Translations under genes and position numbers: made by a program
Notes under the pieces: model-generated
Seen by the model: only the letters and a program-made list of their open reading frames with translations
The model's database searches: none
Told to the model about the DNA's origin: nothing
Assembly: GCA_029061255.1 (NCBI GenBank)
Contig: JAIDSL010000101.1
Coordinates: forward strand, 1 to 64,000
Length of the DNA stretch: 64,000 nt
Direction of reading: 5' to 3'
From: Muribaculaceae bacterium
Lineage (GTDB): Bacteria > Bacteroidota > Bacteroidia > Bacteroidales > Muribaculaceae
Shown here: positions 13,407 through 34,147 of the stretch, piece after piece
Position numbering within the stretch: the stretch's first letter is position 1
Layout: every line of letters begins with the position of its first letter

Positions 13407-13425
13407 ATTTTATTATTTAAGTGAG

Positions 13426-15738: not shown

Positions 15739-17613
15739 ATGAAGGTCATGAAAAAAAATATATACACGATATTGTCTGCTATAGCTCTGGTTACGGCATC
15801 TTGTCAGGATGAATTTTTGACTGACGACTTTGCCCCATCAAAAGGGATGGGAATTACTTTCCATATCTCAGTTCCGGCGAATGAGCCGGATGGCACTACA
15901 CGCGGCGAGGCTGCGGATGAGCAAGCCATAAGCCTCCGCTATCTTATTGCCGATGCAACAGGCAAGGTGTTGGATCATTGCCATGGTCAACTCTCAGAGA
16001 GCCTCGATCGTCTGAACATCAGCGGCCTTGAAGCCGGCAACTATTCTTTGGTCTTCTTAGGCAGCTCCTGCGAATCGGAACTCGCTCATATAGAAGAACC
16101 CGCGACTCTTGACGAAACATGGCTTCAAAACACTGTTCTGTCTCTCCCCATAGAAGGATCATATTTCTTCAAGAAGATAGATTTCACGTTGCGAGAAATG
16201 ATTGAGCCGAAAGAGTATGAGGTGATCCTCGAGAGAGCGCTTTCGAGAATAAAGATAGAGTTCCCGGGGCTTCCCTCCGCTGTGGAAACCATGATATCAA
16301 GCGTGACGGTAACGCTCGACGAGGGCTGCCATGTGTATTCCTCCGTCAACGCAGACTGCAGATACACAGGCGAAGCCACGATCAGCAATTGCGAGGTGTG
16401 CGACTCAAGCTTCAACCTTATGCTCAATACCCTACCTTCAGCCACTCCCCTATCGGGGACCGTAAAGGTCAAGAGCGGCTCTCTTTCAGGCGACTCAATC
16501 TGCACATCCTATCGCTTCTCCGACCTCACTGCGGAAGCAGGGAAGGTCAACAGGATCTCGATAGCCCTGCGTCATCCGGATTTCAAGACAGGCTTCATCC
16601 ACATCCGCCCACAAGACTATATCCACTTCGATGCCGACCTTATGCTCATGGAAGACGAGCCACTCGACATACTTCACGATATCGACCTTCGACACTTCAA
16701 TATCACTGAGCCTCTCGCATTGAAGACCTACAAGAATCAGCTCCGTCTTCAACTCTACTCCGCCGCCCCGGCAGCCAACGTGGATATCTACGCCAATTTT
16801 CCCTCTTTAGGAGTCGACAGCGTATGCCTGGCACACCTCGACAAGGTAGAGGCACTCCTTGACATGGCAGTACCTATGACCTTCACAAAAAGGGAGGCAC
16901 AGTATCTCGACATCCACGGAAAGCGCGTCACCCTTCCCAAGATGGACATTCCCTCCGACATCGAGTGGTTTGTAAGGACAGACGACCCTTTTCTGACCAG
17001 AATGTCAGGGCTTAGCCTGAAGAAATGGAATGTAAGCTTCTACGACTGGGAATCATTATGGCCATCAAAGGCTATCGCACCCGACCCCAAATGCATGAGG
17101 CACGCTATGATACAGATGATAAACCTGGCCATTACTCTCGATTCAGACGAGTTTGCACAGGAGCTCGCCGCCCACAATGGACAGTATATCGATTCAGACA
17201 CATACCTTTCAAATGAAGAGATCGTCGATAGAATCCACAACTGCTACGACTGCTGCTACGGCATTGGAGCCACCAATCCATCATGCCACAACAACGGCTG
17301 GGGTGGAGGATGCCATTCCGGCATAGTCTCAATGATCGTCAATCAGGAATATTACGCTGCGATGTATCCTACAGAAGACCCTGACATCGCCTGCAACAGG
17401 GAGCGCGAGTGTTTCTATCACGAATATTCACACTGCCTCGGCTTTTCCCACGACGGCAACATGACTTATGGCGGAGTCTGGACCAACACTGTCGGTGCGG
17501 CCTACCTCAAAGCCCATAAGGCAGGAAAGATCTTCTTCTATTCTCCAGCCTTCATTGACAATCTTCCTTACAGGCGTGCTGAAGCTCCGAAATGGGCGGC
17601 ACAGAAAAGATGA
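15739..17613 (+). CDS. Mfa2/FimB-like lipoprotein with metzincin-type zinc-binding site
   Basis: Lipoprotein: ALVTASCQ gives a lipobox with Cys22 (ATG at 15739 or 15748). Residues 35-290 are beta-rich and resemble the fimbrial anchoring subunit family (ERALSRIKIEFPGLP near 169). The second half is different: it contains H561-E-Y-S-H565-C-L-G-F-S-H571, an exact HExxHxxGxxH zinc signature of metzincin peptidases. N-M-T-Y-G follows directly, though a Met this close is not the usual Met-turn position. A Cys-rich loop (NCYDCCYGIG and a further CHNNGWGGGC) lies near 512-533. A fimbria-associated surface peptidase is the natural reading, but loss of activity or an M60/M64-like family cannot be excluded. 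The GC and codon use look like the neighbours. Confidence 0.65.
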   Translation: MKVMKKNIYTILSAIALVTASCQDEFLTDDFAPSKGMGITFHISVPANEPDGTTRGEAADEQAISLRYLIADATGKVLDHCHGQLSESLDRLNISGLEAGNYSLVFLGSSCESELAHIEEPATLDETWLQNTVLSLPIEGSYFFKKIDFTLREMIEPKEYEVILERALSRIKIEFPGLPSAVETMISSVTVTLDEGCHVYSSVNADCRYTGEATISNCEVCDSSFNLMLNTLPSATPLSGTVKVKSGSLSGDSICTSYRFSDLTAEAGKVNRISIALRHPDFKTGFIHIRPQDYIHFDADLMLMEDEPLDILHDIDLRHFNITEPLALKTYKNQLRLQLYSAAPAANVDIYANFPSLGVDSVCLAHLDKVEALLDMAVPMTFTKREAQYLDIHGKRVTLPKMDIPSDIEWFVRTDDPFLTRMSGLSLKKWNVSFYDWESLWPSKAIAPDPKCMRHAMIQMINLAITLDSDEFAQELAAHNGQYIDSDTYLSNEEIVDRIHNCYDCCYGIGATNPSCHNNGWGGGCHSGIVSMIVNQEYYAAMYPTEDPDIACNRERECFYHEYSHCLGFSHDGNMTYGGVWTNTVGAAYLKAHKAGKIFFYSPAFIDNLPYRRAEAPKWAAQKR

Positions 17614-17774: not shown

Positions 17775-17807
17775 ATTGCAAAATCTAACAAAAAATTAGT
17801 ATCTTTG
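17775..17807 (+). promoter_or_regulatory. Promoter of the main fimbrial operon
   Basis: -33 ATTG (17775-17778), 21-bp gap, -7 TATCTTTG (17800-17807), an exact TAnnTTTG. It lies in an AT-rich 279-bp gap and predicts a leader of about 80 nt before the OmpA-DUF3575 gene. The rest of the gap (17614-17774) shows only a short AT-only hairpin just after the previous stop. No inverted repeats or recombinase gene suggest an invertible promoter. Confidence 0.75.
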
Positions 17808-17892: not shown

Positions 17893-19236
17893 TTGAAGAT
17901 ATTACTTACATCCATATTAACGGTAATTATAGCCATTTCAGCCTTCGGGGAGATGCCTGCCGATTCGGTAAAGGTGTATTTCCTTGCGGGTCGTCGGCTT
18001 TTTGACCCTTCCCTCGGCAACAACGGGGAAGTTATGGATCGTTTTATCGAAAAAGTAAAGAAGGCAAAAGCTCAGGACAACATCAACTTCCTCACAGTCC
18101 GTGGCTATGCTTCTCCTGAGGGTGCCAGCGACGCCAATCAAAGGCTCTCCGGCCTTCGCTGCGATGAGATAGCGAAATACATCAGGCTCAACGCAGGCAT
18201 CGACAGCAAGCAGATCGAGACATTTGCCAATGGTGTGGCTTGGGAGGAACTACGCAATCTTGTGGCGAAGCATCCAGAGATGCCATCGCAAGAGAGAGTG
18301 CTCTATATTCTCGACCACACTCCCCTTTGGGTATATAACCGAGAGAAAACAAAAATCATCGACGGCAAGAAAAAGCAACTCATGGAGCTGTCAGGTGGAC
18401 GCGTCTGGAACTGGATGATGGAAAACCTCTTCCCGGAGCTTCGCAATGCAGTGGCAGTGGTGCTCTATCTTAAGCACAATGAATATATCCCTATAGCTTC
18501 TGAGAAAACCACTTCTCCCACCGATAGCTCTTCTGATATAGTTGAAAATACGACTGACATAATAGAAGATGCAGCCATACCGGAGCATCCAGACTCTGTC
18601 GTTTTAAATGTCACAGATGTCATGTCAGCTCTTGAAGGCAAAATCATATGTGTCACGGCAATGCCGAAGCCATTCTACATGGCAGTCAAGACCAATATGC
18701 TTTATGATGCAGCATTAGTGCCAAATATCGGAGCAGAATTCTATCTTGGCAAGAACATCTCGCTCTATGGGGAATGGATGTATGCATGGTGGGACAACAA
18801 CAACCGTCACCGCTACTGGCGCGTCTACGGAGGCGACCTCGGATTGCGCTGGTGGTTTGGGAAAAAGGCACAAGCCAAACCCCTTACAGGTCATCATCTC
18901 GGCATCTACGGAGGGATCCTGACATTTGACTTCGAGACGGGAGATACCGGCTATCTCGGAGGAAAGCCCGGCGGCACGCTATGGGACCGATGGCTCGTCA
19001 ATTCAGGCATTGAATATGGCTACTCGCTTCCCATAGGGAAACACCTTAACATAGATTTTTCCATAGGATTAGGATATATGGGAGGAAACTACATAAAATA
19101 TTATCCATTTGACAACGACTACTATCTCGACAAAGAATATAAAATGCATTACTTCGGCCCTACAAAGGCCGAGATATCTCTCGTATGGCTCATAGGGCGC
19201 GGCAACACCAACAGCAGGAAAGGAGGTGACAAATGA
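17893..19236 (+). CDS. OmpA-like / DUF3575 fimbrial-locus outer-membrane protein
   Basis: Starts at TTG (17893): an in-frame TGA lies directly upstream and the TTG opens a clean signal peptide (MKILLTSILTVIIAISAFG). Residues 25-150 resemble an OmpA-type module (FLTVRGYASPEGASDANQ, LSGLRCDEIAKY), which typically holds peptidoglycan. Residues about 255-440 match the DUF3575 family, a Bacteroidota domain found beside fimbrillin genes. It has alternating aromatic strands (KTNMLYDAALVPNIGAEFYL near 261), consistent with an outer-membrane barrel. The probable role is assembly platform or anchor for the fimbriae. The stop overlaps the next ATG by 4 bp (ATGA), so the DUF5119 gene is translationally coupled. 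Confidence 0.82.
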   Translation: MKILLTSILTVIIAISAFGEMPADSVKVYFLAGRRLFDPSLGNNGEVMDRFIEKVKKAKAQDNINFLTVRGYASPEGASDANQRLSGLRCDEIAKYIRLNAGIDSKQIETFANGVAWEELRNLVAKHPEMPSQERVLYILDHTPLWVYNREKTKIIDGKKKQLMELSGGRVWNWMMENLFPELRNAVAVVLYLKHNEYIPIASEKTTSPTDSSSDIVENTTDIIEDAAIPEHPDSVVLNVTDVMSALEGKIICVTAMPKPFYMAVKTNMLYDAALVPNIGAEFYLGKNISLYGEWMYAWWDNNNRHRYWRVYGGDLGLRWWFGKKAQAKPLTGHHLGIYGGILTFDFETGDTGYLGGKPGGTLWDRWLVNSGIEYGYSLPIGKHLNIDFSIGLGYMGGNYIKYYPFDNDYYLDKEYKMHYFGPTKAEISLVWLIGRGNTNSRKGGDK

Positions 19237-20216
19237 AGACTCTTTTCCATAAATCATCTTCAATAGCACTTGGGATGCTGTTTCTTATTGCGGAGGGTTG
19301 CACCCACAAGGATCTTAACGAAGATGCCCATACTACCCTTGCCGACAATGTCGAGGTGATATTCGACTGGAGCAAGACTCCTGCTAAAGAGGCAAAGACC
19401 ATGGTGCTCTACCTCTATTCTGATGAGCATGAAATGATGGACTACCGCTTCAACAATCCTGACGGGGGCACGATCCGAACATACGCCGGGCCGCATACTG
19501 CAGTCTGCCACAGCAACGACGACCCCTACGGGCATCACCTGCGTGCCCAGGACTCACACGACGATATCGAGATATATACCGACGAAACGGGCATACTCGT
19601 AGGGCAAGGTATTTCCACGAGAGGAATTCCGAGAGCGAAAGGCACGGAAGACGAGCCACTGAGGGAAACACCTTCGATGATCTACGGCGCTCAGAACAGA
19701 GAAGTGAATCTAAAGGTGTCTGCCCTCCCCCAGAAACTCGCACTCTTCCCGGAAGAACTTATATGCCGCTATTCGGTAGAATTCGTGGATGTCGAAAACC
19801 TCAAGAGTGCCGATCTACGCATAGACGCCACAATCTCCTCGCTTGCCGGAGGATATTATCCCGGAAGGATGAAGCCTAACTCTGAGGCTGTCTCGCACAC
19901 CTTTACACTGACTGCCAACCTTGACAATAATTCACTGAATACGGTGTTCTATACATTCGGGCTTCCTGAAGGCGAAGAGAAGGACCACAAGATATGCCTA
20001 TACATAGCCTTGAAGGACAGAACTGGAGCCTTCTACACATTTGATGTCACTGACCAGGTGAACAAGGCTCCCGATCCGCGCAACGTCAGCATAAAGATCT
20101 ACGGACTCAAGCTACCCGAGATACCTGACGACCCCCCAAAACTCCCGGATGGAGAAAGTGGCTTCAGCATTGAAGTCGACACCTGGGACACTTATCATTA
20201 CGACCTGAAGGTGTGA
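19233..20216 (+). CDS. DUF5119-family lipoprotein
   Basis: Lipoprotein: LFLIAEGCTH gives a lipobox, Cys23. The family (DUF5119) is found almost only in Bacteroidales fimbrial loci, immediately after OmpA/DUF3575 genes. Visible features are VEVIFDWSKTP near 41, a beta-rich body, and ALKDRTGAFYTFDVTDQV near 269. A role in anchoring or regulating fimbrial length, like FimB or Mfa2, is plausible by context only. It is coupled by ATGA overlap to the gene before it and followed by 116 bp containing a heptamer array before the first fimbrillin. Confidence 0.75.
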   Translation: MKTLFHKSSSIALGMLFLIAEGCTHKDLNEDAHTTLADNVEVIFDWSKTPAKEAKTMVLYLYSDEHEMMDYRFNNPDGGTIRTYAGPHTAVCHSNDDPYGHHLRAQDSHDDIEIYTDETGILVGQGISTRGIPRAKGTEDEPLRETPSMIYGAQNREVNLKVSALPQKLALFPEELICRYSVEFVDVENLKSADLRIDATISSLAGGYYPGRMKPNSEAVSHTFTLTANLDNNSLNTVFYTFGLPEGEEKDHKICLYIALKDRTGAFYTFDVTDQVNKAPDPRNVSIKIYGLKLPEIPDDPPKLPDGESGFSIEVDTWDTYHYDLKV

Positions 20217-20221
20217 CTACT

Positions 20222-20277
20222 TAATTCATAATTCATAATGCATAATGCATAATTTCAGTCAATAGGCTGAAATTCAG
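20222..20277 (+). repeat. Heptamer array plus CTGAAATTCAG hairpin
   Basis: Four heptamer units a few bases after the stop of the DUF5119 gene, then AATTTCAG and CTGAAATT forming an 8-bp stem with an 8-nt loop. Lies inside the fimbrial operon and could lower read-through into the fimbrillins or affect mRNA stability. Confidence 0.8.
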
Positions 20278-20332: not shown

Positions 20333-21871
20333 ATGAACAGACTTTCTCTAACAGCAGTCGCAGGCGGTCTGGTAATCCTTTCCTCCTGCTCACAAGAAGA
20401 GATGACGAAGGCTCCTCAGCCAACCGGTGACTTTCCGATTTCATTCCGTGCCGGAGTCGGCACCCGCGTAAATCCGGATCTCAACTACATCCAGAATCCG
20501 GCTACTTTCTACGTGTCGGCCTATGCACCCAATCACATGTCGGATACAGGCATTATACCTGACTCCCTATTCTGGGACGAGCCCTTCTACCTGATGGGTG
20601 CGAATCTCTATGCCAGCAGCAGTAACCAGAAATGGCCTACAAAAGAACAGGCGTCCAAAGTGGAGTTCTTTGCCTATGCGCCTTCTCTTGAAGAGATTCA
20701 GAACGCGGCCTTCACACAGCTGGATCAAAACGATCCGAACTACAGCAACAATCTTGCGAGCTATACGAAATCTATACAGTTCTTCAACCTCTGTAACGAC
20801 AATGTTCCCCTGGATCCTATGGGCCAGATGTCTACGACCTTTAAGGACGTTACCCTTTACAAAGGTTTCAAGCTGGGACGCTTCTATGTAGCGACAGATA
20901 TCTCAAAACAGGTGGATTTCATCACCTCCCATATTTCTGCCGACGTGCCGGAAAATGAGGATGCTGCAAAATTGGGTGTTGAGCTGAAATTCAAGCATCA
21001 GCTTTCAAATATCGAACTTAGAGCCTTCTCAGGGCATCCTGACTACAACATAGAGATCGCCGGCGTCAGATTGGGTAGGCCATATACCGGCAACGCTATC
21101 TTCAATTTCTGCGACGGACAAGGCGGCGTAGACTATGCAGCAGGCGGACAATGGGGAATTTCAAAGAATCCACAGCGTCTTCCCGTGGAATACATATTTG
21201 GCGAAGGTGACGAGATCTACCGTATGGGTAAATTCAACAACCTCAATGGTGGCGCTGTAATGTCAACTACACCTCACTCTACTGCTGCCACTGCAGAATC
21301 TATCATGGGCAAAGGAGGAAATGCCATGGTGCTTCCTACCAAGAATGCCGCTTGGGGTGGAGAAGCCAATCCTTGGATTGCTCCGAAATACAGCGCGTTT
21401 ACCGGTCACGGAGAAGATCCGTATCCTGACAGGAATCCTAAAACTTGGGATCCTACCACCGAAGGCGATATGTATTTCAGCATTCTTATTCGTGTGACTC
21501 TGAAACCGGAAGGCGACGAGCTTAACACTCCTCAGATCTATCCCTATGGCAACAACACTACTATGAATGTAGTATATCTTGAAAAAGAGAAAAACTCCAA
21601 TAAGATTATCGGTCGTGTTCCATCAAAGTCATCGTCTGTCGGAGCCAACAGTGAGATCGTTGAGTTCGGTTGGGCTGCAGTGCCTGTAGGTGTAAACTGG
21701 GAAAGAGGCAAGAAATATGTCTATACTCTCGACTTCAGTGACGGTGTAGGCATACAGGATCCGGAAGACCCGAAGCCGGGTACTGCCATTATTGGTGATG
21801 GCATCAAGTTCTCAGTATCTGTTGAGGGCTGGGACGAAAGCACCAACAGCACTCCTGTTCCTCAGGAATAA
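20333..21871 (+). CDS. Fimbrillin family protein 1
   Basis: First and longest (512 residues) of six tandem fimbrillins. Lipobox ILSSCSQ, Cys19. Arg45 in GVGTR is in the place where FimA/Mfa1-type precursors are cut by an Arg-specific protease. The family core is LKFKHQLSNIELRAFSG (near 221), then IEIAGVRLGRPYTG (near 242), then the IMGKGGNAMVLPT segment (near 324). The end holds RGKKYVYTLDFSDGVG, a DPEDPKPG motif and a final TPVPQE. It is probably a structural pilin whose N-terminal strand is removed and replaced by the next subunit's C-terminus. It has an insert near 335-375 not present in the others. Confidence 0.85.
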   Translation: MNRLSLTAVAGGLVILSSCSQEEMTKAPQPTGDFPISFRAGVGTRVNPDLNYIQNPATFYVSAYAPNHMSDTGIIPDSLFWDEPFYLMGANLYASSSNQKWPTKEQASKVEFFAYAPSLEEIQNAAFTQLDQNDPNYSNNLASYTKSIQFFNLCNDNVPLDPMGQMSTTFKDVTLYKGFKLGRFYVATDISKQVDFITSHISADVPENEDAAKLGVELKFKHQLSNIELRAFSGHPDYNIEIAGVRLGRPYTGNAIFNFCDGQGGVDYAAGGQWGISKNPQRLPVEYIFGEGDEIYRMGKFNNLNGGAVMSTTPHSTAATAESIMGKGGNAMVLPTKNAAWGGEANPWIAPKYSAFTGHGEDPYPDRNPKTWDPTTEGDMYFSILIRVTLKPEGDELNTPQIYPYGNNTTMNVVYLEKEKNSNKIIGRVPSKSSSVGANSEIVEFGWAAVPVGVNWERGKKYVYTLDFSDGVGIQDPEDPKPGTAIIGDGIKFSVSVEGWDESTNSTPVPQE

Positions 21872-21948
21872 TCCGAAAGAAATTAGATTCAAGGAGAGTA
21901 TTCCTCTCCTTGACGACTTAAAGATATCTGTCAACTGAATGTAAAGAT

Positions 21949-23403
21949 ATGAATATATCGAGAGTGACATATTTTGCTCTTGCAGCGTTTGTATTTGCCG
22001 CCTCCTGCTCGAAGGAGGCGGCAGAGCCGGACGTCTATGACTGGGCAGACGGGAAAATATACTTCAAGACTTCCCTCTCCGATGTCGCCTACTCAAGGGC
22101 TCAGGATATGACACTTGATCGTCTTGAGTCTTTTCAGGTGACATGCTTCAATACTGCCGACAGATATAAGGACCAGGCAGGATTTCTCTCTCCCTATTTT
22201 GAAAACGCAACCTTTATACGCAAGGATAACTCAGGAGTTGGCACATATGTGTCATCGCCGTCTGAAGAGCCGCGCAATTGGCCTGCCAACGATGGATTCC
22301 TGAGATTTTTTGCCTTCTCGCCATCACTTAAAGTGATGAGAGAAGGGAATACGAAGCTCGAAGATCCCGACAATAACAAATTCTTCAGTCTGACCAACAG
22401 TACGATAGAAACTGCATCATCAGTCTCCGTAGGTTATCGACTTGGCAACGTGCGAATAAATCCTGACATATCGCGTCAATTTGACTTCGTCGCAGCTGAA
22501 GCCTCCGGCACCAGGCAGAATGATTTCATGGGAGGTGTCGACATTGCATTCAGCCATCAGCTATGTCAGGTAGAACTTCAAGCCTGGGGAGCAAACAAAT
22601 ATTATGATTTTGAGATAGCCGGCGTGCGCATCGGCAATCCTGTAGTAGAAGGTACGTTCGTTTTCGCAGATGATGCTGATAAAGCATCTGCAAGGAGATG
22701 GGAGACCGGCGAAAAGCCGGTCATGGACAAGGTGGAATATCTTTACCGGGGCACTGAAGCCTCCGGAGCAGAAGATGAGCCGGGCATCGGCGACAAAATC
22801 TTCAGAATCAACAATCAGCAACACAATTCCCAGGAATCGGCTGCCTCGATTATGGGACTCGGAGGCTGCGCGATGGTGATTCCTACAGTCAACGACAGAT
22901 GGGAAGCCCTGGCAGATCCTAATATTGGAGCGGACACCTATTCTACCGACCGCATGTATTTCAGCATACTGATGAGGGTCACAGATACGGGCAACGGCTC
23001 TTTGGTCTATCCCTATTCAGGGAAGGATGACGGAAGGAAAGTCGTAAGCTATGCGATGGATCCGGAAGGAAAAATCATCAGGCGGCTTTATCCCGGATCA
23101 GAGAAAGGAACATATTTTATTGATCCCGAACTTAAGAATCAATATGTGGCTGCACAGGGGGAGGAAATAAAAGATTTTGGATGGGCAGCGGTTTCGGTCG
23201 ATGCAGACTGGAGCGCAGGGAAAAGATATGTCTACACACTCGACTATTCGGAGGGCATAGGTCTTCATGACCCTGAGGATCCCGAGCCCGGCAAGCCAAT
23301 AGGAGTGAAAAAAGAGATTTCCTGGGGTGTAAGCGTCGGAAAATGGGACTATGCCACGCCCGACGACAACTATACGCCAGACGTGGACGTGCCTTTTGAA
23401 TAA
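21949..23403 (+). CDS. Fimbrillin family protein 2
   Basis: Paralogue of the preceding gene, 484 residues. Lipobox FAASCSK, Cys20. Putative maturation Arg50 (DVAYSR). Core strands are IAFSHQLCQVELQAWG near 203 and FEIAGVRIGNPVVEG near 223. Then come SIMGLGGCAMVIPT near 303 and the closing block AGKRYVYTLDYSEGIG, DPEDPEPGKPIG, DVDVPFE. The preceding gap is 77 bp. The stop TAA is the first triplet of a heptamer array, which separates it from fimbrillin 3. Confidence 0.85.
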   Translation: MNISRVTYFALAAFVFAASCSKEAAEPDVYDWADGKIYFKTSLSDVAYSRAQDMTLDRLESFQVTCFNTADRYKDQAGFLSPYFENATFIRKDNSGVGTYVSSPSEEPRNWPANDGFLRFFAFSPSLKVMREGNTKLEDPDNNKFFSLTNSTIETASSVSVGYRLGNVRINPDISRQFDFVAAEASGTRQNDFMGGVDIAFSHQLCQVELQAWGANKYYDFEIAGVRIGNPVVEGTFVFADDADKASARRWETGEKPVMDKVEYLYRGTEASGAEDEPGIGDKIFRINNQQHNSQESAASIMGLGGCAMVIPTVNDRWEALADPNIGADTYSTDRMYFSILMRVTDTGNGSLVYPYSGKDDGRKVVSYAMDPEGKIIRRLYPGSEKGTYFIDPELKNQYVAAQGEEIKDFGWAAVSVDADWSAGKRYVYTLDYSEGIGLHDPEDPEPGKPIGVKKEISWGVSVGKWDYATPDDNYTPDVDVPFE

Positions 23404-23434
23404 TTCATAATTCATAATGCATAATGCATAATTA
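23401..23434 (+). repeat. Heptamer array overlapping the stop of fimbrillin 2
   Basis: TAATTCATAATTCATAATG and further units. The first TAA is the stop codon of fimbrillin 2. Confidence 0.85.
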
Positions 23435-23542
23435 TCTGACGATGAAAACAATTTGACGGCATCTGGCATTGACGATGCATATAAATTGATGACATATATA
23501 AACATATATAGGAAGCAATACACTTGATTTGAACGGAAACAA

Positions 23543-24916
23543 ATGGAAATGAAGACATATATATATTCGGCTGTCGCGGGGATACTCGTGCTTGCATCAT
23601 GCAGTCAGGAGGGTCCGGGAGCAGGAGCAGCCGGAGAGTATGGCGACAGGATATATTTCCGGTCATATCTTCCGACTGTCACAAAGACACGCGCCGGCAT
23701 CATCTCGAAAGAGAACCTTTCGGAATGCCAAGTGACCGGCTTCAATCCTGACGACGAGAACCGCATCGACTCCGAGACTGGAAAGATAGAGCCATTGTTT
23801 GGCGACATCCGATATGAAAAGGATGCGGCAGGACATTTCATACCTAATGAGACCGACGCATGCACATGGCCTGACTCACAAAGCACTCTGCATTTCTTCG
23901 CCTATTACCCTTCTGCGGAGTCAATGCGGGAAAAGATTGACAGTGAAAAGTTCAAATTTGTCAACAACTCAAAGAAAGCCGAAGACGATACATACGCGCT
24001 CGAATATCGGCTTGAAAACTTTAAGGTGGCTCAAGACATAGCCGACCAGGTAGACTTCATCGCTGCATATTCCAACGGAACAGCACAGAAAAACGGGCGC
24101 TCAGGAATCGACCTCAACTTCAGCCATCAGCTCGCGCGGGTAGAGATTTCAGCGTGGGGCGAGAGCAACAAGTATGATTTCGAGATAGCCGGCGTGAGAA
24201 TAGGCAATGCCTTCACGGAAGGAGACTTCAGTTTCTCATCCCTTATGTCAGAATCGGGAGGTGATGCCGCATGGCAGAACACCGAGGGGAAGCAGTCGCC
24301 CGTTGAGCACATTTTCTCCAAAGGGGAATCCACTGTCATGGTCAGCAAAACGGGAGAAATCGCTTCCTCCTCCGGCAACGCTGCATCCATCATGGGAAAT
24401 TCAGGCCCTGCAATGGTGATTCCGATGGCAGGGAAAATCGAAGCCTGGGAAGGAAAAGGGTATTCAGCCGCAGGGAAACTTTATTTCAGCGTGCTGCTAA
24501 GAGTAATCAATAAGGATGGCGATACAGTCTATCCCTATCCCAACGACAAAGCCGGTATCCCTGTCGTGTATCTCGCCTTCGGCGAAGAGGGCACTATCAA
24601 GGAGAGGCTCTATCTGAAAGACGGAGAGTATTACACCCAAGACTCTGAGAATGAAGAATACAAGTACACTCCGAGCGATACGGAGGAAGTGCGTGGCTTC
24701 TGCTGGGCATCCCTTCCCGTAGCGGCCAAATGGGAGGCCGGAAAGATATATACATATAAACTTAACTATACCAACGGCATCGGATGGCAGGATCCGAAAG
24801 ACCCCAACCCCGGAGAACCCATCATCGAGAGGGGAAGTGTGCCCTTTGAAGTAGATGTGGCTGAATGGCTTCCGGCTGAGGACTATGATTCGGATATAGA
24901 AGTACCAAAAAAATGA
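23543..24916 (+). CDS. Fimbrillin family protein 3
   Basis: 457-residue paralogue. Lipobox VLASCSQ, Cys20. Putative maturation Arg50 (VTKTR, with Lys48 also available). Core: LNFSHQLARVEISAWG near 194, FEIAGVRIGNAFTEG near 214, ASIMGNSGPAMVIP near 280. Closing block: GKIYTYKLNYTNGIGWQDPK, NPGEPIIE and a C-terminus IEVPKK. Stop and next start overlap as ATGA, so fimbrillin 4 is translationally coupled to it. Confidence 0.85.
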   Translation: MEMKTYIYSAVAGILVLASCSQEGPGAGAAGEYGDRIYFRSYLPTVTKTRAGIISKENLSECQVTGFNPDDENRIDSETGKIEPLFGDIRYEKDAAGHFIPNETDACTWPDSQSTLHFFAYYPSAESMREKIDSEKFKFVNNSKKAEDDTYALEYRLENFKVAQDIADQVDFIAAYSNGTAQKNGRSGIDLNFSHQLARVEISAWGESNKYDFEIAGVRIGNAFTEGDFSFSSLMSESGGDAAWQNTEGKQSPVEHIFSKGESTVMVSKTGEIASSSGNAASIMGNSGPAMVIPMAGKIEAWEGKGYSAAGKLYFSVLLRVINKDGDTVYPYPNDKAGIPVVYLAFGEEGTIKERLYLKDGEYYTQDSENEEYKYTPSDTEEVRGFCWASLPVAAKWEAGKIYTYKLNYTNGIGWQDPKDPNPGEPIIERGSVPFEVDVAEWLPAEDYDSDIEVPKK

Positions 24917-26289
24917 CGCACAAGAGAGACTTCAATATGGCAAAGCTTATCCACATATCCTACACACTGTTCGGAATCGTCATGATGGCAACCTCATGCA
25001 CGAATGAGAACATAGGGGGCGACGATATCCGCATGACGGGACGAAAGATCGAATTTAGGGCATCATTTCCTGAACTGACCACACGTGCTACGCAGACCAC
25101 CTCCGCCACCCTCGAAAAGATCACGGTGAGCTCCTATATCACGGGAGAGACCTCCGACACTCCCTATTTCACCGACATGACATTCAGCAAGACAGGCAAT
25201 CCCGCGATTTATGTATGCTATGACGATGCCTGCGTATGGCCCGACAATGACACACGTCTGCGCTTCCACGCATACTCCCCCTCTTGCGAAGACATAATCG
25301 CGGCAGGAGGAGAGGCGACTTCAACGGGCGATCGGATTTCAGGCTTCAAAGTGCCGGGCGACATCGCATCGCAATTCGACTTCGTGACAGCTATAAGTCC
25401 GGGGAGTCTGATTGACAATAAAGAAAGCGGAGTCAAACTGAATTTCAAGCATCAGCTGAGCAGGATCGAGCTCAAGGCCTGGGGCAACTCAGACAGCTAC
25501 AATCTCGAGATTGCCGGATCCCGCATAGGAGGAATCGGAACAGGAGGAGATTTCAGTTTCACGTCGCCGGCCGACGCGGAGACCACAGACTTCACTGGGG
25601 CCTGGAAGAACGTAGCGAAAGGAAGCGTCGAGTATATCTTCCGCGAAGGAGACACAATAGTGACACTCGACAATTCTAACGGCGCACCGACATCAAAGGA
25701 TGATGCTGTCTCGATTTTAGGAAACAAAATAGGAGGAAAAAACGGCTACGACAATTCAGCCATGATCGTTCCTTCAGTCAATACCCCCTGGCAATATAAG
25801 GAAAGTCCGTCAAACGGAGAGGATAAGACTGATGGGATGTATATCAGCGTGCTCCTGAGGGTAAAGGACACGACACCCACCTCCACGGGCGACGGCATTG
25901 TCTACCCTTACACAGACCCTTCATATATCGACGAGATAGTCTATCTTGCAGTAGATAAATCCGACTCGAAGACAGTCAAGGCCCGTCTTTACAGGCAGGG
26001 AGAATCCTATTTCATAGACCCTGGACATACGGCACAGTATGATCCGGAAGCCGACAACGCAGACGTAAAGGCCTTCGGCTGGGCGGCTCTCCCGAAAGGA
26101 GAAAGCCTCAAGCCGGGATTGGTCTATACCTATTTGCTCAACTACAGCAACGGCGTAGGACTGCGAGACCCGGAGGATTCACGACCCGGAGAGCCAATCA
26201 TCAGCGACAACGTGGCAGTCAATGTTAGTGTCGAGATAGAAGACTGGAAGGAAGGGACCAATAATGATCTTTCAGTACCGAGGAAATAA
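24913..26289 (+). CDS. Fimbrillin family protein 4
   Basis: Paralogue of 458 residues from the ATG overlapping the previous stop. An ATG at 24937 would give 450 residues and would put the lipobox Cys (MATSCT) and putative cleavage Arg (PELTTR) at 21 and 50, as in its sisters, so that start may be the true one. Core: LNFKHQLSRIELKAWG, LEIAGSRIGGIG. The conserved IMG segment is SILGNKIGGKNG here. Closing block: GLVYTYLLNYSNGVGLRDPE, RPGEPIISD and a C-terminus LSVPRK. ISVLLRVKD is the shared strand upstream of the hinge. Confidence 0.85.
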   Translation: MTHKRDFNMAKLIHISYTLFGIVMMATSCTNENIGGDDIRMTGRKIEFRASFPELTTRATQTTSATLEKITVSSYITGETSDTPYFTDMTFSKTGNPAIYVCYDDACVWPDNDTRLRFHAYSPSCEDIIAAGGEATSTGDRISGFKVPGDIASQFDFVTAISPGSLIDNKESGVKLNFKHQLSRIELKAWGNSDSYNLEIAGSRIGGIGTGGDFSFTSPADAETTDFTGAWKNVAKGSVEYIFREGDTIVTLDNSNGAPTSKDDAVSILGNKIGGKNGYDNSAMIVPSVNTPWQYKESPSNGEDKTDGMYISVLLRVKDTTPTSTGDGIVYPYTDPSYIDEIVYLAVDKSDSKTVKARLYRQGESYFIDPGHTAQYDPEADNADVKAFGWAALPKGESLKPGLVYTYLLNYSNGVGLRDPEDSRPGEPIISDNVAVNVSVEIEDWKEGTNNDLSVPRK

Positions 26290-26331
26290 GGGAATTTAAG
26301 AGAAAATAAAGGAAAATAAAGAGAGACCGGC

Positions 26332-27684
26332 ATGGAATCGACAATAAAGACATCATATATAATATTGGGTGGGCTTCTGCTTCTATCCTCCTGCGCACAG
26401 GAGGATAGTCCGGCTGTGCGTACCGATGGAAGCGACAGAAGAATCGTATTCCACACAGCACTGCCGGAACTGACCACCAAGGCTAAGGAAATCGCGACCG
26501 AGCTTCCCTATTTCCTTATGACCGCCTTCGACGAATCAGACGTCAAACTTATAAGCGGCGATACGCTTAAGGGATATTTCTACAATAAGAGAATAGAGAA
26601 AATAGACGGATCAAATACTTATCAAACAGATGAATGCCAGTGGCCGGCTCAGGGGCAGGAAAGCGACATACTCCATTTCTTCGCCTACTATCCGGCATTG
26701 GGCCCGGGAGCGACCCTCGTCAACGCCACTGCTGTAGGCGAGAACAATACCATTGAGGCTATAGGCTATAATATTAAGGATTTCAGCGTGGCTTCGGATG
26801 TCGCCGAACAAGTGGATTTTGTAACGGCATACGCAAAGGGGTCGATGGCAGAGAACCTCTTCTCCGGCATATCCCTGAATTTCCGTCATCAGTTGAGCAG
26901 AATAGAGGTGAAAGCCAAAGGAGCACACAAGAGCTGCGATATCCAGATAGCCGGAGTGCGGATAGCAAACGCCGGAATGAAGGGTGACTTTGTATTCCCG
27001 ACTTCAGCTGATGCCGACGAAGTGTGGAGCGGCACCACCAAAGGAATAGCCGAGTATATTTTCCATGACGGAGATCCTATAGTCAAAGTAGGTCCGGATG
27101 CCGTATCCATAATGGGAAAGAAAATCGGCGAAGACACCGACAACTGCGCGATGCTTATTCCATCGACATATAGCGGATGGGATTATTCAGGCGACTCCGG
27201 GAATGAGAATGAAGGGATGTATATGAGCGTATTGCTGAGAGTGCTTGACAAGACACCCGGAGGCAATAACAAACAGCAATATCCATATCCTGACAATAGC
27301 CAGAGTCTGAATGCACCTAATATTTCGACGGTCTATCTTGCTGTAAACAAGACAAACGATATAGTCACAAGGCGCGTCTATAAAAGCGGAGAATCTTTCT
27401 TCTCAGATGAGGCATGCACACAAAGCTACACTATCCCGGAAGAGGAGGAAGTTCGGGCATTCGGCTGGGCTTCCCTCCCAATTACCGGAGAGTGGGAATC
27501 GGGCTACACATACACCTACACACTCGACTACACATCGGGAGTCGGAGTTCACGGGCCGGAAGTAACGGGAGAGACATCACCGAAAGCCGGAGACCCGATC
27601 ATCGGCGACAGAGTCGGTGTCAGTGTAGCTGTAAGTAACTGGCAGTCCGGTTCAACTACCGATGAAACGGTTCCGGGATCCTAA
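26332..27684 (+). CDS. Fimbrillin family protein 5
   Basis: 450-residue paralogue. Lipobox LLLSSCAQ, Cys21. It is the only one with Lys instead of Arg at the putative maturation point (PELTTK, Lys50), which would suit a Lys-specific or relaxed trypsin-like protease. Core: LNFRHQLSRIEVKAKG near 183, IQIAGVRIANAG near 203, VSIMGKKIGEDTDN near 257. Closing block: SGYTYTYTLDYTSGVGVHG, then KAGDPIIGD and a C-terminus ETVPGS. The region before the closing block carries an insert (VTGETSPK) that replaces the DPEDP motif. Confidence 0.85.
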   Translation: MESTIKTSYIILGGLLLLSSCAQEDSPAVRTDGSDRRIVFHTALPELTTKAKEIATELPYFLMTAFDESDVKLISGDTLKGYFYNKRIEKIDGSNTYQTDECQWPAQGQESDILHFFAYYPALGPGATLVNATAVGENNTIEAIGYNIKDFSVASDVAEQVDFVTAYAKGSMAENLFSGISLNFRHQLSRIEVKAKGAHKSCDIQIAGVRIANAGMKGDFVFPTSADADEVWSGTTKGIAEYIFHDGDPIVKVGPDAVSIMGKKIGEDTDNCAMLIPSTYSGWDYSGDSGNENEGMYMSVLLRVLDKTPGGNNKQQYPYPDNSQSLNAPNISTVYLAVNKTNDIVTRRVYKSGESFFSDEACTQSYTIPEEEEVRAFGWASLPITGEWESGYTYTYTLDYTSGVGVHGPEVTGETSPKAGDPIIGDRVGVSVAVSNWQSGSTTDETVPGS

Positions 27685-27700
27685 TCAAACTCAGACATTC

Positions 27701-29056
27701 ATGAACGATAAGATAATCAAATACGGTCTTACATCGGCACTTGCCGCATCAATGCTATCCTCCTGCTCGCAGGAGGATATGCAGGTGAGTGGGTTGCCGG
27801 GTGCTGACGATGCCATCGTGTTCGTCACAGCCTTCCCCGGAGTAGAGACACGATCTAATGATAATACTGTCATCGGGAGTCTTAACGAAGGCTTCTATGT
27901 CACTGCATTCGCGCCGGAAGATGAGACTACAATCGGGACCGAAAATAAACTCAACGAGTATTTCGCCAACCAGTTGGTCACCAAGACACTGGGTATGGTC
28001 AATGCGTTCGGGTCTGACATGTGCAGATGGCCGGCAAACACCGGGACTAAATCGGGGACACTGAAGTTTTTCGCATTCTATCCCTCAGTTGAAACATTGA
28101 GGCAACGGGCCGGAGAGGACGGCAATTCAAGTTATTTCGAACTCCTGAACAACTCAACTTCGTCATCCTATTCCTATCTGATGACTAAGTTTAAGATTAA
28201 CAAAGACATATCCAAGCACGTGGATTTCGTCACCGCAACATCCGAGGGCAATAAAACCGCCAACCTCTATTCAGGAGTAAATCTGAATTTTGAGCATCAA
28301 CTGAGTAGGATAAATATTCGGGCTTGGGGAGCTCCGACAAACTATGAGGTTGAGATAGCGGGAGTCAGGTTGGGAAATGTCAATACGGAGGGTTCCTGCA
28401 ATTTTTCAGGCACTTGGACATCCACGTCAAAAGGAATCGTGGAATATATCTACAATGAAGGAGATAAAGTCATTTCCATCGGCAAAGGCCAGTACAACAA
28501 AGTGGACAGTGCTACATCTATCATGGGAAATGGAGGAGCCGCGTTGATTATCCCGGATACTTATTCTACAAAATGGAACACTTCCGAAGAGAATGGCTTT
28601 TACTACAGTGTCTTGCTAAGAATTAAAGATAAAAACGGATCTTTGCTCTATCCCTACACAGAGGAAGAGGAAATGACAACCGATGGTACGGATAATAAGG
28701 AAGTGGTCTATCTTTCTTTTGACAAATCCTCAGATCTGGTTAAGAAGAGACTTTATAAAAAGGACGGCAACTATTATACATCAGATAACTTTTCCTCTGA
28801 TTCATTATATGAAAAGAGGGATGATGAGGAAGTCAGGAATTACAGATGGGCCGCCGTACCTTCGACAGCAGCATGGGTGGTCGGTTACGAGTATATTATA
28901 AGACTTGGTTATTCCACCGGTGTAGGCGTTAAGGATCCTGCGGATTCACATCCCGGAGAGCCTATCATAGTTGGCATATCTCCGACGGTAGTAGTGGAAG
29001 GTTTTGAAGTGGTAGATGACGAGGATTTGAGTGATCGATTCGACATTATCAAATAA
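27701..29056 (+). CDS. Fimbrillin family protein 6
   Basis: Start placed at 27701, 16 bp after the previous stop. An in-frame ATG at 27662 inside the previous gene would add 13 polar residues ahead of the signal peptide and is rejected. With this start there are 451 residues, lipobox MLSSCSQ (Cys22) and maturation Arg51 (GVETR). Core: LNFEHQLSRINIRAWG, VEIAGVRLGNVNTEG, TSIMGNGGAALIIPD. Closing block: YEYIIRLGYSTGVGVKDPAD, HPGEPIIVG. Unlike the others it lacks the VP ending and closes SDRFDIIK. More AT-rich codons than fimbrillins 2-5. Confidence 0.85.
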   Translation: MNDKIIKYGLTSALAASMLSSCSQEDMQVSGLPGADDAIVFVTAFPGVETRSNDNTVIGSLNEGFYVTAFAPEDETTIGTENKLNEYFANQLVTKTLGMVNAFGSDMCRWPANTGTKSGTLKFFAFYPSVETLRQRAGEDGNSSYFELLNNSTSSSYSYLMTKFKINKDISKHVDFVTATSEGNKTANLYSGVNLNFEHQLSRINIRAWGAPTNYEVEIAGVRLGNVNTEGSCNFSGTWTSTSKGIVEYIYNEGDKVISIGKGQYNKVDSATSIMGNGGAALIIPDTYSTKWNTSEENGFYYSVLLRIKDKNGSLLYPYTEEEEMTTDGTDNKEVVYLSFDKSSDLVKKRLYKKDGNYYTSDNFSSDSLYEKRDDEEVRNYRWAAVPSTAAWVVGYEYIIRLGYSTGVGVKDPADSHPGEPIIVGISPTVVVEGFEVVDDEDLSDRFDIIK

Positions 29057-29095
29057 AAACAAACGAATACAGCATAAATCAGAATCAATGGCAAT

Positions 29096-30175
29096 ATGAG
29101 ATACAATACACTTCAAGCTACGGTTTACTTCATATTCTGCATGATGTGTATAGCTTCGTGCAGCTCCGGACCATACGATGATCCGGACATTGACAACGGT
29201 CTCGCAATGACGTTTGACGTGGCAGTCGAAACACGCGCAATCACCACAGATATAGATGAATTCTCAATATATGGAGACAGCAGATTACAGTCAGAACCGG
29301 GTGATTCATCAGTGATTTTCAACAAGACTCCTGTAAGAAAAAACGCCGGAGTATGGCAATATGACGACACACGATATTGGATTCCTAACCGCGAGCATTC
29401 ATTTGTTGCGGTAAGCCCATCATCGGTGCTTGAACGTGAGGATGCCGCTCCACAATATTCCGCATCCGGACTATCTTCCGCATCCGGACTATCTTCCGCA
29501 TCCGGACTATCGTTCACTTACACTATGCCGATCTACTCCGGCAAAGAAATGCAAGGAAAGCAAGATAAGAGTGAACTAATCGACATTGTCGCAGCTACAC
29601 ATCGCCGGAAATACAACGGAGGTGATAATGCAGATGCCATAACATTAAGTTTTAGCCATTTGCTGTCGATGGTCAATTTCAAGCCAATGCTGAATGACAA
29701 CAGCATAAAAGATGACGACTACATACTCTTTCACAAATTCGAACTTATAGGTTTCACGAACAAGGTCAGATACACAGTGACACCGAAAGGCATGTCAACC
29801 GGCACATCTACAGACGAACGCGAGATTGATTTGTCTTATTTAGACACTGACAATCTTACCATCATATTCCCACAGCCCCTAAGAGTCGACAATGGAAAGC
29901 AAATCAGTCTTTTTGAAGAGGGAGATGCCATCATGGTGCTACCCCAGGATTTCGATGCTAACCCATCAGCCAAAGTGAGATTTACATATGCATTCAGTGA
30001 TAATCCGGAGAATCAGATAACAGGAGAAATTCCACTGAACGGGAAGATGTGGGAAGCGGGCAAGAGTTACACCTACACCTTCACGCTTGACAAGATCGGG
30101 TTGCATTTAGGGACTGCCACCATCGAGAATTGGACATCACCGGAGATGCCGGATGTATCTTGGATAGTTGAGTAA
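29096..30175 (+). CDS. Short fimbrillin-family protein with SASGLS repeats
   Basis: 359-residue lipoprotein (CIASCSS, Cys22) with a putative maturation Arg47 (VAVETR). It belongs to the broader Mfa-like fimbrillin group: FSIYGDS near 58, RYWIPNREHSFVAVSPSS near 93, ITLSFSHLLSMVNF near 182, and WEAGKSYTYTFTLDKIGLHL near 320. It lacks the SIMG segment of the six tandem paralogues. Three perfect 18-bp repeats encode SASGLS x3 near 122-139. Being between the pilin array and the long adhesin-type proteins, it could be a minor or adaptor subunit. Confidence 0.78.
   Translation: MRYNTLQATVYFIFCMMCIASCSSGPYDDPDIDNGLAMTFDVAVETRAITTDIDEFSIYGDSRLQSEPGDSSVIFNKTPVRKNAGVWQYDDTRYWIPNREHSFVAVSPSSVLEREDAAPQYSASGLSSASGLSSASGLSFTYTMPIYSGKEMQGKQDKSELIDIVAATHRRKYNGGDNADAITLSFSHLLSMVNFKPMLNDNSIKDDDYILFHKFELIGFTNKVRYTVTPKGMSTGTSTDEREIDLSYLDTDNLTIIFPQPLRVDNGKQISLFEEGDAIMVLPQDFDANPSAKVRFTYAFSDNPENQITGEIPLNGKMWEAGKSYTYTFTLDKIGLHLGTATIENWTSPEMPDVSWIVE
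29458..29511 (+). repeat. In-frame 18-bp x3 coding minisatellite
   Basis: Three identical copies of TTCCGCATCCGGACTATC, encoding SASGLS each. A whole number of codons, so copy changes would alter length without frameshift. Confidence 0.92.
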
Positions 30176-30241
30176 TCAGCAACGAGTAATGATAAATAGA
30201 AAACTGCACAAACTGAAGTAGTTTAAACATATACAGGACAA

Positions 30242-32224
30242 ATGGATAAATACAAAATAAATATTCTGCGTGCACTTGCAGCAATATTGCTTGGTGTCGG
30301 TGCAGCCTCATGCTCTCAGGAAGACTTCGAACGGGGCAGGGCGTTGCCGGCAGGTCAATATCCGTTGGATTTTACCGTTTCCGTTGAAGGTTTACATACA
30401 CGCGCTAACGGTAAGACAGCTTGGAATAATGGGGATAAAATAGGAGTGAAAATTGGGTCTGACACCGAAGTAGGATGCTACACTTTAGACTCCAACGGGG
30501 ATGTAAACTATCAGAAATCAGAAAAAATACTTCACTGGAAGACTTCTGCCTCTACCACAGTCAAAGCATGGTATCCTTACGCACCTCAGACCAATGATTC
30601 GATTAAAGATCAGTCGAAACTGTCAGATTTTACTTCAATCGACTATCTCGCTGCCACTGCCGAAAATCAGAGTTACAAGAATACGGTAGGCTTGACTTTC
30701 AAACACCAGATGGCCAAAGTAAGATGTGATCTCAAAAGCGCAGATGTGGGAATCATACCCTTGGATACGTTGGCTAATGCCAAAGTCACCTTCAAGGGCT
30801 GCACCGTAGCCTCATTTGTCGATGGTGAGCTCACCGGGAGTGCTTTCGGGGATATTACCCCGGTCAAAGACTACCGCTCCCATGAGGCCCTGCTTGTGCC
30901 GGCCGACATGACAGGTAAAGAACTGTTTCGGATTGATTTCAAAGTGGGGGGCTATGACAAAAGCTTCAGCTACATCCCGGATGGCGATTTTGCAAACTTG
31001 CAGCCGGGGACATCGTATTTTTTCACCGTAACCTTGAGCCGAGATGAGATGGTTGTCAACGCCATCTCTGCCTCTTGGGAAGGTGAAAAAGAAGATATAA
31101 TATCCGATCAGATACCCCTGAAACTATATTTCTCTAATGATCAGACTCGAGAAATTTTTGAAAATTACGCCGAGAATGTTTATTGGGATTATGGGGACGA
31201 GTGTTATAAATCACAAGACAACACCTTCACCATCAGCCTCACGCTTGATCCTGACGGAGAAAACTTTATGAAGGGGTTTAACGTGACAGATGGCATAGTA
31301 TCGGTCAACCGTGTCAGGGTTGAGGACCGCCATGTGTTCACATTCAAGGCGCTTAGCGAAAGTGTGTGTCTTGAATATGGCGATTACGTGCAGCCGGGAG
31401 ATTTTCTATACTCCAACGGGAAGTGGCGCCCTGACATAGTAGGTGTGGACCTAAATATCGGCGGCAATGACGACGGCGAAAATGACGAAATCGATGGTGA
31501 AGAAGTCAAAGGTGAAAGCGGCAATAAGAACAACTTCAGTGGCTATGGCTACGAAGATTCTGAAACGTGGGAGTGTATCGGCGTCGTTTTCAAGGTTGGC
31601 CCTGGCAATGGTGATTCACCGGATAATTACGATATGCTGGAAACCATCCACGGCTATGCAGTGGCCCTTCACGACGTTTCGGCCCCTGACGAAATCGGCA
31701 ACTGGGGTGGTAGTCTTGAAGGTAATGTTAAAGATGCAGAAGCGGCAATTGGATTATATGATAGTTTTACCGATCTTTACAATGGCTATACGAATACTCA
31801 GAAAATGTTGCCAATCGCTGCCGCAAATACGAAAGCAATAGATAGATTCGAAGAGCCTGCTTATTGGGCATTTTACAAGTTGAATGACTATAATAAGGCT
31901 GTGAAAGTGCCCGAATCCGCAAGCCCATGGTATCTCCCTTCCATCGGACAACTCTACGACCTGTATAAATTCTCCGGACGACGCGAGCGCCTCTTAATGG
32001 CAGGCGGTGAGGAATTCATATTGAGTGACGTGGGAATTTTTCCTCCCGGATCGATGAAATATGACACATTCGGCGCAAAATACTGGTCATCGACTCAGCA
32101 CACAAGGGACATGGCATGGGTTTTCAGATTTCAGGGCGGTAAAGTTGATAAATTGACCAAGCTTGGGGTGTCTTTTAGTAGCCGGAGCAGCCTAAGTCGT
32201 GCCCGTGCGGTTTTGACATTCTAA
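30242..32224 (+). CDS. Fimbrillin with C-terminal DUF1566/FISUMP-like adhesive domain 1
   Basis: 660-residue lipoprotein (VGAASCSQ, Cys24), putative maturation Arg54 (LHTR). Residues 45-280 form a fimbrillin (Mfa_like) domain with the TAWNNGDKIGVKI and LTFKHQMAKVRCDL strands. A second part (about 300-420) is followed by an acidic stretch (GGNDDGENDEIDGEEV). The C-terminus from about 430 resembles DUF1566/Lcl and FISUMP domains: WYLPSIGQLYDLYKFSGRR near 561, KYWSSTQHTRDMAWVFRF near 618, and SLSRARAVLTF at the very end. Similar layouts occur in fimbrial tip proteins, so it is a candidate tip adhesin. Confidence 0.72.
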   Translation: MDKYKINILRALAAILLGVGAASCSQEDFERGRALPAGQYPLDFTVSVEGLHTRANGKTAWNNGDKIGVKIGSDTEVGCYTLDSNGDVNYQKSEKILHWKTSASTTVKAWYPYAPQTNDSIKDQSKLSDFTSIDYLAATAENQSYKNTVGLTFKHQMAKVRCDLKSADVGIIPLDTLANAKVTFKGCTVASFVDGELTGSAFGDITPVKDYRSHEALLVPADMTGKELFRIDFKVGGYDKSFSYIPDGDFANLQPGTSYFFTVTLSRDEMVVNAISASWEGEKEDIISDQIPLKLYFSNDQTREIFENYAENVYWDYGDECYKSQDNTFTISLTLDPDGENFMKGFNVTDGIVSVNRVRVEDRHVFTFKALSESVCLEYGDYVQPGDFLYSNGKWRPDIVGVDLNIGGNDDGENDEIDGEEVKGESGNKNNFSGYGYEDSETWECIGVVFKVGPGNGDSPDNYDMLETIHGYAVALHDVSAPDEIGNWGGSLEGNVKDAEAAIGLYDSFTDLYNGYTNTQKMLPIAAANTKAIDRFEEPAYWAFYKLNDYNKAVKVPESASPWYLPSIGQLYDLYKFSGRRERLLMAGGEEFILSDVGIFPPGSMKYDTFGAKYWSSTQHTRDMAWVFRFQGGKVDKLTKLGVSFSSRSSLSRARAVLTF

Positions 32225-32236
32225 AAGAATTTAAAT

Positions 32237-34147
32237 ATGAACAGACTGATTTTACCATATATTTTTATCCTTTCCTGCTTTCTATGTGCGTGTCAAGATA
32301 TAGATGACATTCCTACACAGGCAGGTAAAGTTGATGGAGACATAATTTCGCTCAACGTCACTGTTGCCGACAATGTTAAGTCAGGCGATCCGGCCTCGCG
32401 TGCGATAGATGACGGCATTTATACAAATTTTGAGCAGGGCGACTCGGTCGGTCTCATCGTTCTCGACAAAGACGGCAAAATTATAGTGAATAATGCCAAG
32501 TATACTTTATCTGACCAAAACGAATGGAAATACCAGAGAATCGATAACGAGAGGCCGCCAAGTTACGACAGCGAGATGCACACCTACATCGTCTATTTCC
32601 CCTACGACGAGTCGGTGGCTGATGCAGTGGCTGATGCATATTGCAAGAGCGCTAAAGATATCTTGGACTTGGACGCCTTCAAGCAGCGGGACGACCAAAC
32701 GACTGAAGAAGCTTATCGCTACTCCGACGTGATGGCATGGGAGTCGTCCAACGGCCCTATCAAGAACATTAAGGCCGAACTGCAGCATCTGCGCAACGGT
32801 ATTTCGCTCGACATCACCGTCCGGTGGAAACTGCTCACTGTCGATCCCATACATTTGAAAGAAAATCCGTCAATAGATTACAGTAACGAAACATTAATCA
32901 ATTGGGATGATTATTATCCGGATGTCGAAGACGTCAGGGAGGTAGTCACCTTTAAGATTCCCGACGAGGCTGCCATTAAAGATAAGGATGGCAATCTTCT
33001 CATGACCCATAAGGCCAAGGACGGCACCTCCCGCTACATTCTCCCCGATGGATATGAGGGTGATATAACTTATTTCTACAACTATCGTGATTGGATGTAC
33101 AGAGGAGAATTCAAAATTCAACCCTCACAGACCGGCACACTCTATTCTAAATACGAGACCGTTGATAGGGAAGTTTACACCTTTGAGGAAGTGATTGTCG
33201 GTGATTTTTATTGTAAGAACTCCCAAAATCACGGCTTTGTCCTCCCTTACGAGGCTACCGAATACTTGGATAATGACAACCACCGTTGCATAGGACTGGT
33301 GTTGCACACAGGCCAACATGAAAACGATTATGAATATAACTACAGTGAAACAGGTATAAAAGATGATTGTTGCCATGGTTATGTCTTGGCGCTGACCGAT
33401 GTCCAAAATGACCTTGACAATGACCTTGACAATGACCTTGACAATATGTTTGAGTGGGAATTGAATGATTCCTACCTTCCGTTTGAAGACGAAAAAACAC
33501 GAGAACAACTACAGTATGTCGTCAATTTAGGTCCCGAAGATTGGAGCGGATATTACAATACTCATATGATTCTGGGAACCTGCGATGAGAACGAGTGGTA
33601 CAGAAATTATTATCCAGCTGTATACGCTGCATACTATTACGGCAATCTTGTCTCCGGGACAGTTGAAGTCAAAGACCCAAAAACTAATAAGGTATACAAT
33701 AAAAATATTCTATTCAATAATCGTGATGAATCCAATAATCGTGATGAATCCAATAATCTTGATGAATCGGAGGATGATAGGCCGATCAAAGGAGTTCCGG
33801 ATATAAACAATTCCTACGCATGGCAGGAACCTCTGCAGGCTCCTGACAATACATCAGGCTGGTACCTGCCGGGTAATGGCATGCTTGTTGAGCTTGGGCA
33901 ATATGAATCCCTTTTTGAGCAACGCTATAAAGAGATAAAAGAGAAACTGGATAATGACGTTCCCTACAAGGAACACATAGGTTGGATGAGATACCATCCC
34001 TCTTGGCGTGGCTATCCCTATTACTGGTCTTCCACCGGAAGTGAACATCCTGGACGAGCGTTATCACATGAATATTCCGAGCAGAACTATACTTATCCTT
34101 CTCACAAATATTTGCGATTCGCGGTGCGCGCGGTATTGTCTTATTGA
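32237..34147 (+). CDS. Fimbrillin with C-terminal DUF1566/FISUMP-like adhesive domain 2
   Basis: 636-residue sister of the preceding protein, starting 12 bp after its stop. Lipobox LCACQDI (Cys19), putative maturation Arg55 (DPASR). Fimbrillin-like first half: YTNFEQGDSVGLIVLDKDG near 56 and LQHLRNGISLDITV near 183. The C-terminal domain holds GWYLPGNGMLVELGQYESLF near 536, YYWSSTGSEHPGRALSHEY near 594 and LRFAVRAVLSY at the end. Two in-frame repeats lie between the domains: DLDN x3 and NN(R/L)DES x3. They look like flexible acidic linkers. It closes the fimbrial operon, and a short hairpin follows. Confidence 0.72.
   Translation: MNRLILPYIFILSCFLCACQDIDDIPTQAGKVDGDIISLNVTVADNVKSGDPASRAIDDGIYTNFEQGDSVGLIVLDKDGKIIVNNAKYTLSDQNEWKYQRIDNERPPSYDSEMHTYIVYFPYDESVADAVADAYCKSAKDILDLDAFKQRDDQTTEEAYRYSDVMAWESSNGPIKNIKAELQHLRNGISLDITVRWKLLTVDPIHLKENPSIDYSNETLINWDDYYPDVEDVREVVTFKIPDEAAIKDKDGNLLMTHKAKDGTSRYILPDGYEGDITYFYNYRDWMYRGEFKIQPSQTGTLYSKYETVDREVYTFEEVIVGDFYCKNSQNHGFVLPYEATEYLDNDNHRCIGLVLHTGQHENDYEYNYSETGIKDDCCHGYVLALTDVQNDLDNDLDNDLDNMFEWELNDSYLPFEDEKTREQLQYVVNLGPEDWSGYYNTHMILGTCDENEWYRNYYPAVYAAYYYGNLVSGTVEVKDPKTNKVYNKNILFNNRDESNNRDESNNLDESEDDRPIKGVPDINNSYAWQEPLQAPDNTSGWYLPGNGMLVELGQYESLFEQRYKEIKEKLDNDVPYKEHIGWMRYHPSWRGYPYYWSSTGSEHPGRALSHEYSEQNYTYPSHKYLRFAVRAVLSY
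33410..33445 (+). repeat. In-frame 12-bp x3 coding repeat
   Basis: Three perfect copies of GACCTTGACAAT, encoding DLDN each. Confidence 0.92.
33716..33769 (+). repeat. In-frame 18-bp x3 coding repeat
   Basis: AATAATCGTGATGAATCC twice, then a copy with two changes. Encodes NNRDES, NNRDES, NNLDES. Confidence 0.9.

Follow-up and report, generated by a model that had tools for sequence, protein, structure and literature searches.

The window, i.e., the whole analysed stretch of 64,000 nucleotides from a Muribaculaceae bacterium, contains an operon that likely encodes a type V (fimbrillin) pilus, the stalk of which would be an ordered series of different subunits with C-terminal tags fitting the next subunit. 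In most stalk subunits, roughly the final twelve residues seem to serve as an address tag for the subunit encoded next. Type V pili are fibres on the surface of Bacteroidales from the gut and the mouth, and how they fix the order of their subunits without a chaperone or usher is not settled. In the FimA structure of 2020, a single subunit is reportedly repeated. In described type V systems the stalk is built from a single repeated pilin (PMC12632263), whereas the operons considered here encode between four and six full-size subunits of the stalk type, with conserved slots and next-subunit tags. Table 1 summarizes the features of the operon.

Table 1. Features of the fimbrillin operon in the window
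Feature	Position	Strand	Remarks
Promoter-like site, Bacteroidota type (TTG, 21 nt, TATCTTTG)	17776..17807	+	Upstream of the operon; from sequence only
OmpA + DUF3575 outer-membrane protein	17893..19236	+	Pfam DUF3575 1e-39, OmpA 2.8e-7; conserved in relatives
DUF5119 lipoprotein, putative anchor and first donor	19233..20216	+	Pfam 2.4e-29; post-Trp tail 20187-20213
F1 fimbrillin, most conserved slot	20333..21871	+	Tag 21833-21868
Hairpin in the F1-F2 gap, without U-run	21888..21915	+	Structure recurs in most relatives
F2 fimbrillin	21949..23403	+	Tag 23347-23400
F3 fimbrillin, optional slot	23543..24916	+	Tag 24869-24913
F4 fimbrillin, optional slot	24937..26289 (ORF opens 24913)	+	Tag 26248-26286; AF2 pLDDT 84
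F5 fimbrillin, Lys replacing Arg at the site	26332..27684	+	Tag 27643-27681
F6 fimbrillin, C-terminus divergent and lacking the usual Trp	27701..29056	+	
F7 short fimbrillin, putative adaptor below the tip	29096..30175	+	Mfa_like_1 2.3e-21; variable slot
F8 tip-type fimbrillin	30242..32224	+	N-terminal Mfa_like_1, C-terminal Lcl_C/FISUMP-like end; 61% in G065
F9 second tip-type fimbrillin	32237..34147	+	Mfa_like_1 7.8e-7; ortholog in G065

The original prediction placed nine fimbrillin genes at 20333-34147. All nine open reading frames are present, and the lipoproteins F1-F9 all exceed the gathering score of the Pfam family Mfa_like_1 (PF13149). The OmpA-DUF3575 and DUF5119 genes, named in the same prediction as the first of the operon, do exist, but they lie just outside that range. 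No chaperone or usher gene was found in the operon, which encodes only fimbrillins between the DUF5119 gene and the gene at 34267, and Rfam gave no match within the window. F1-F6 can be aligned over their full length and share the predicted plan of lipobox, Arg/Lys site, HQL strand, EIAGVRIG, SIMG and DPxDPxPGxPI. They belong to one family and not to unrelated ones. The term close tandem paralogues was nevertheless overstated, as F2-F6 share just 33-36% identity with F1. F8 and F9 combine a fimbrillin N-terminus with a long C-terminal part, that of F8 resembling Lcl_C below the Pfam cut-off.

The subunits have the anatomy of type V pilin precursors. A [TSA]-R-[ASVGT] site follows the lipobox Cys in nearly every subunit, with every slot represented, and in F5 the site residue is Lys in 6 of 25 sequences. 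A profile of the six proteins had no match among the sequences of solved structures, and therefore folds were compared. The AF2 model of F4 (pLDDT 84, pTM 0.83) shows a pro-strand at residues 39-43, a disordered loop containing R50, a final strand at 429-436, Trp437 and a tail that is disordered at its end. The fold search with this model returned 32 matches at E <= 1e-3, each of which is a pilin or fimbrial protein of Bacteroidales; Bacteroides pilins, Mfa1 and FimA rank highest (E 6e-10 to 4e-6, TM about 0.3-0.6). A C-terminal segment behind a conserved Trp is present in F1-F5, and F6 of the window lacks the Trp. In Mfa1, a Trp stands about ten residues ahead of the C-terminal end and the last residues occupy beta1 pockets (Hall 2018, PMC5789003). 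The fold, the lipoprotein precursor, the Arg site after the pro-strand, the Trp near the C-terminal end and an operon of stalk genes with a putative anchor and tip are shared with the type V pili of P. gingivalis (FimA, Mfa1) and with Bacteroides pilins.

DUF5119, the putative anchor, is a lipoprotein without an Arg site of the subunit kind near its N-terminus. It matches Mfa2 weakly (E 0.48), and its AF2 model (pLDDT 51) was too poor for use. Regarding candidate processing proteases, a C11 protease was not found in the 87%-complete source MAG; it is present in 36 of the 41 genomes searched of the genus, and the source genome has one C25 protein with an open frame of 1147 aa.

Within the genus, profile searches recovered matches at E <= 1e-80 in 19 of 111 genomes; within the family, 26 of 397 genomes, representing 8 of 30 genera, matched at E <= 1e-90. 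Some 20 Muribaculaceae species or more have the operon, most of the genomes being MAGs, and some matching genomes contain F5/F6-type genes alone. The gene order is invariant in relatives: ompA, DUF5119, F1, F2, (F3), (F4), F5, F6, F7 and tip genes, some species being without F3, F4 or both. In a tree of 116 sequences, F1-F6 each form a separate clade with SH-aLRT support of 99-100 by a quick method. F1 is the best-conserved slot (66-90% identity among relatives), and F7 shows just 23-31%. The tip genes of relatives mostly do not match F8 or F9, and unrelated long genes occupy the same place. In a second type of array, a short fimbrillin termed F0 stands first and F5, F6 and F7 come after it; in G209, G281 and G301, F0 leads directly into F6 and F7. 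F0-type arrays occur in L094, L089, L106, L090, L091 and L092, and G071 has both an F0 array and a long one. In G070, ompA-DUF5119-F1-F4 is found twice in near-identical form (L071 and L072), on two contigs, for which duplication or strain mixture is possible.

Six orthologous clades in a fixed order favour a type V pilus of different subunits over recent duplication or antigenic switching. The presence of several full-size subunits in one operon could also mean alternative major pilins, expressed singly for antigenic or ligand diversity, as the original prediction had offered. This appears very improbable, since the slots are ancient, kept apart, collinear and non-interchangeable, the downstream gaps are short, one promoter-like site lies ahead of ompA and the tags match their neighbours; conversion between slots was unseen beyond the C-terminal tag. 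The multi-component pilus that had been proposed beside it is strongly supported by the six orthologous slots, their constant order, an Arg/Lys site in each slot and tails that match the next subunit. To call the tandem set unusual needs qualifying, however, as tandem fimbrillin loci of up to seven or more genes exist in another Bacteroidales genus. L128, from a genome of another Bacteroidales family, has at least seven fimbrillin-type genes in succession, each with a terminal Trp-plus-tail.

Evidence on subunit order comes from the segment behind the C-terminal Trp, termed the tag, in 98 genes with known own slot and next gene. In type V pilins this segment forms the donor-strand region. Among genes with the same body, mean normalised tag similarity was 0.47 when the next gene was the same and 0.12 when it differed. 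For different bodies, the corresponding values were 0.46 and 0.12, the latter representing background. When the 98 tags were clustered label-free into seven groups, every group was pure for the downstream gene. Where a gene has a non-canonical neighbour, the tag is of the class of that new neighbour in 19 of 20 cases, whereas the strand immediately before the Trp matches it in just 7 of 20. A slot-free test on 148 genes gave a partial r for tag similarity of 0.64 with the next gene and 0.19 with the own body. On a tree of tail-less bodies, nine changes of next gene and nine changes of tag class were counted; well-supported branches provide only five independent pairs, all five concordant, which alone gives p = 0.0625. 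Tag class therefore tracks the acceptor gene and not the own protein for tags donated to F2-F6, the range that the rule covers, with informative cases for F4, F5 and F6 as acceptors. The F1 tag cannot be separated from self-polymerisation because F2 always comes after F1. In the tandem arrays of another Bacteroidales genus the rule was not seen, and these contain almost no informative (discordant) pairs. Such tags were nowhere described in the open-access texts searched, nor was DUF5119 mentioned in them.

Recombination in a tandem array yields chimeric junctions of the kind observed, and the match of tag and neighbour might thus be a by-product of paralogue deletions and downstream block transfers that bring 3' ends along without any binding specificity. 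This explanation is considered unlikely. The ten chimeras built on F2 or F3 bodies are all of their own slot until the last 14-40 residues, and random deletion over about 450 codons would hardly place its breakpoints there. When identical tag residues stand on different bodies, the codons differ in 55% of comparisons (45% within the body), indicating that conservation acts on the protein. In addition, the F5-directed tag is also carried by F0 bodies, which are outside the F1-F6 group. G068 and G070 have a split operon, with F1-F4 in one place and F5-F7 and the tip genes on a different contig, and F4 retains its F5-type tag even so.

In the proposed assembly, each subunit would be made as a lipoprotein with a pro-strand, and cleavage at the conserved Arg (Lys in F5) would open a groove. 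From the sequences we infer that the tag of each subunit inserts into the groove of the subunit encoded after it; an opened groove would thus be filled by the post-Trp segment of the subunit encoded upstream. Tags being slot-specific and cognate to the next encoded subunit, physical order would follow gene order: DUF5119 anchor, F1, F2, (F3), (F4), F5, F6, F7 and the presumed F8/F9 tip, with donation passing from DUF5119 to F1, from F1 to F2 and onward to the tip. The donor strand and its direction were left undecided by Hall 2018 (PMC5789003), and the match of tag class to the acceptor, not to its own protein, provides independent evolutionary evidence for a C-terminal donor and for the direction. 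If the rule is true, one may be able to read the building order of a pilus off its genes, and subunit order could be predicted and then tested with short peptides.

The stoichiometry may follow either of two layouts. The post-Trp tag could be an address code: each slot would be filled once in a hetero-oligomer of fixed order and possibly of fixed length, and the final 13-18 residues of each subunit would reveal the composition of the pilus; this is a tentative proposal. F1 may be single-copy, as in that layout, or repeated. The second layout, a variant of the ordered pilus held with similar reserve, resembles the P pilus: F1 would form a repeated stalk, and F2-F7 would be single-copy minor subunits in a tip fibrillum under F8/F9. 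It agrees with the one repeated stalk pilin of described type V pili (PMC12632263) and with F1 as the most conserved slot, which in most relatives is set off from the other genes by a long upstream gap and a downstream hairpin. F2, F3 and F0 are probably not self-polymerising, since their tags switch along with the neighbour, which also fits this layout. Nevertheless, the F1 tag has no visible likeness to the DUF5119 tail, although both would fill the F1 groove.

The ordered pilus would work much like the P pilus of Escherichia coli, a chaperone-usher system with several homologous subunits in a defined order and cognate donor-strand pairs, of which cognate donor and acceptor are faster to react (PMC3647068). 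That system belongs to an unrelated family, its donor is an N-terminal extension and it requires chaperone and usher, whereas the fimbrillin array has a proposed C-terminal donor and an acceptor encoded next in the operon. A closer comparison is the DUF3575/DUF5119/single-fimbrillin locus on contig C120 of G000, which has the same start of ompA, DUF5119 and fimbrillin but one short fimbrillin where the window has the array.

At the transcriptional level, TAnnTTTG sites similar to that of the window lie upstream of ompA in most relatives. A Sigma-70 scan was uninformative in this phylum. A hairpin with z <= -2 was found in 11 of 19 F1-F2 gaps and in none of the F2-F3, F3-F4 and F6-F7 gaps. A role as terminator was rejected, as the coding strand has no U-run. 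Recurrence of the hairpin behind F1 among most relatives suggests that F1 is expressed apart, its mRNA being stabilised or processed separately from the remainder like that of a major subunit. Ahead of F5 and of F6 the gaps are mostly 11-18 bp, and the 16-bp gap predicted between F5 and F6 of the window was correct. The predicted ATGA overlap at 24913 exists only if F4 starts at its first ATG; a start at 24937, which leaves a gap of 20 bp, is favoured because the lipobox Cys is then positioned as in the paralogues.

Upstream of the operon, a pair of lipoprotein genes (13705-17613 of the window) has its own promoter-like site. One encodes a FISUMP-like protein and the other a protein with a metzincin-type HExxHxxGxxH motif. 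The pair is absent in G072 and also precedes ompA in G061 and G062. Finally, an AT-rich intergenic repeat, TTCATAATGCATAATGCATAATT, occurs at 13412-13476, 15647-15697, 20216-20266 and 23402-23452 of the window.
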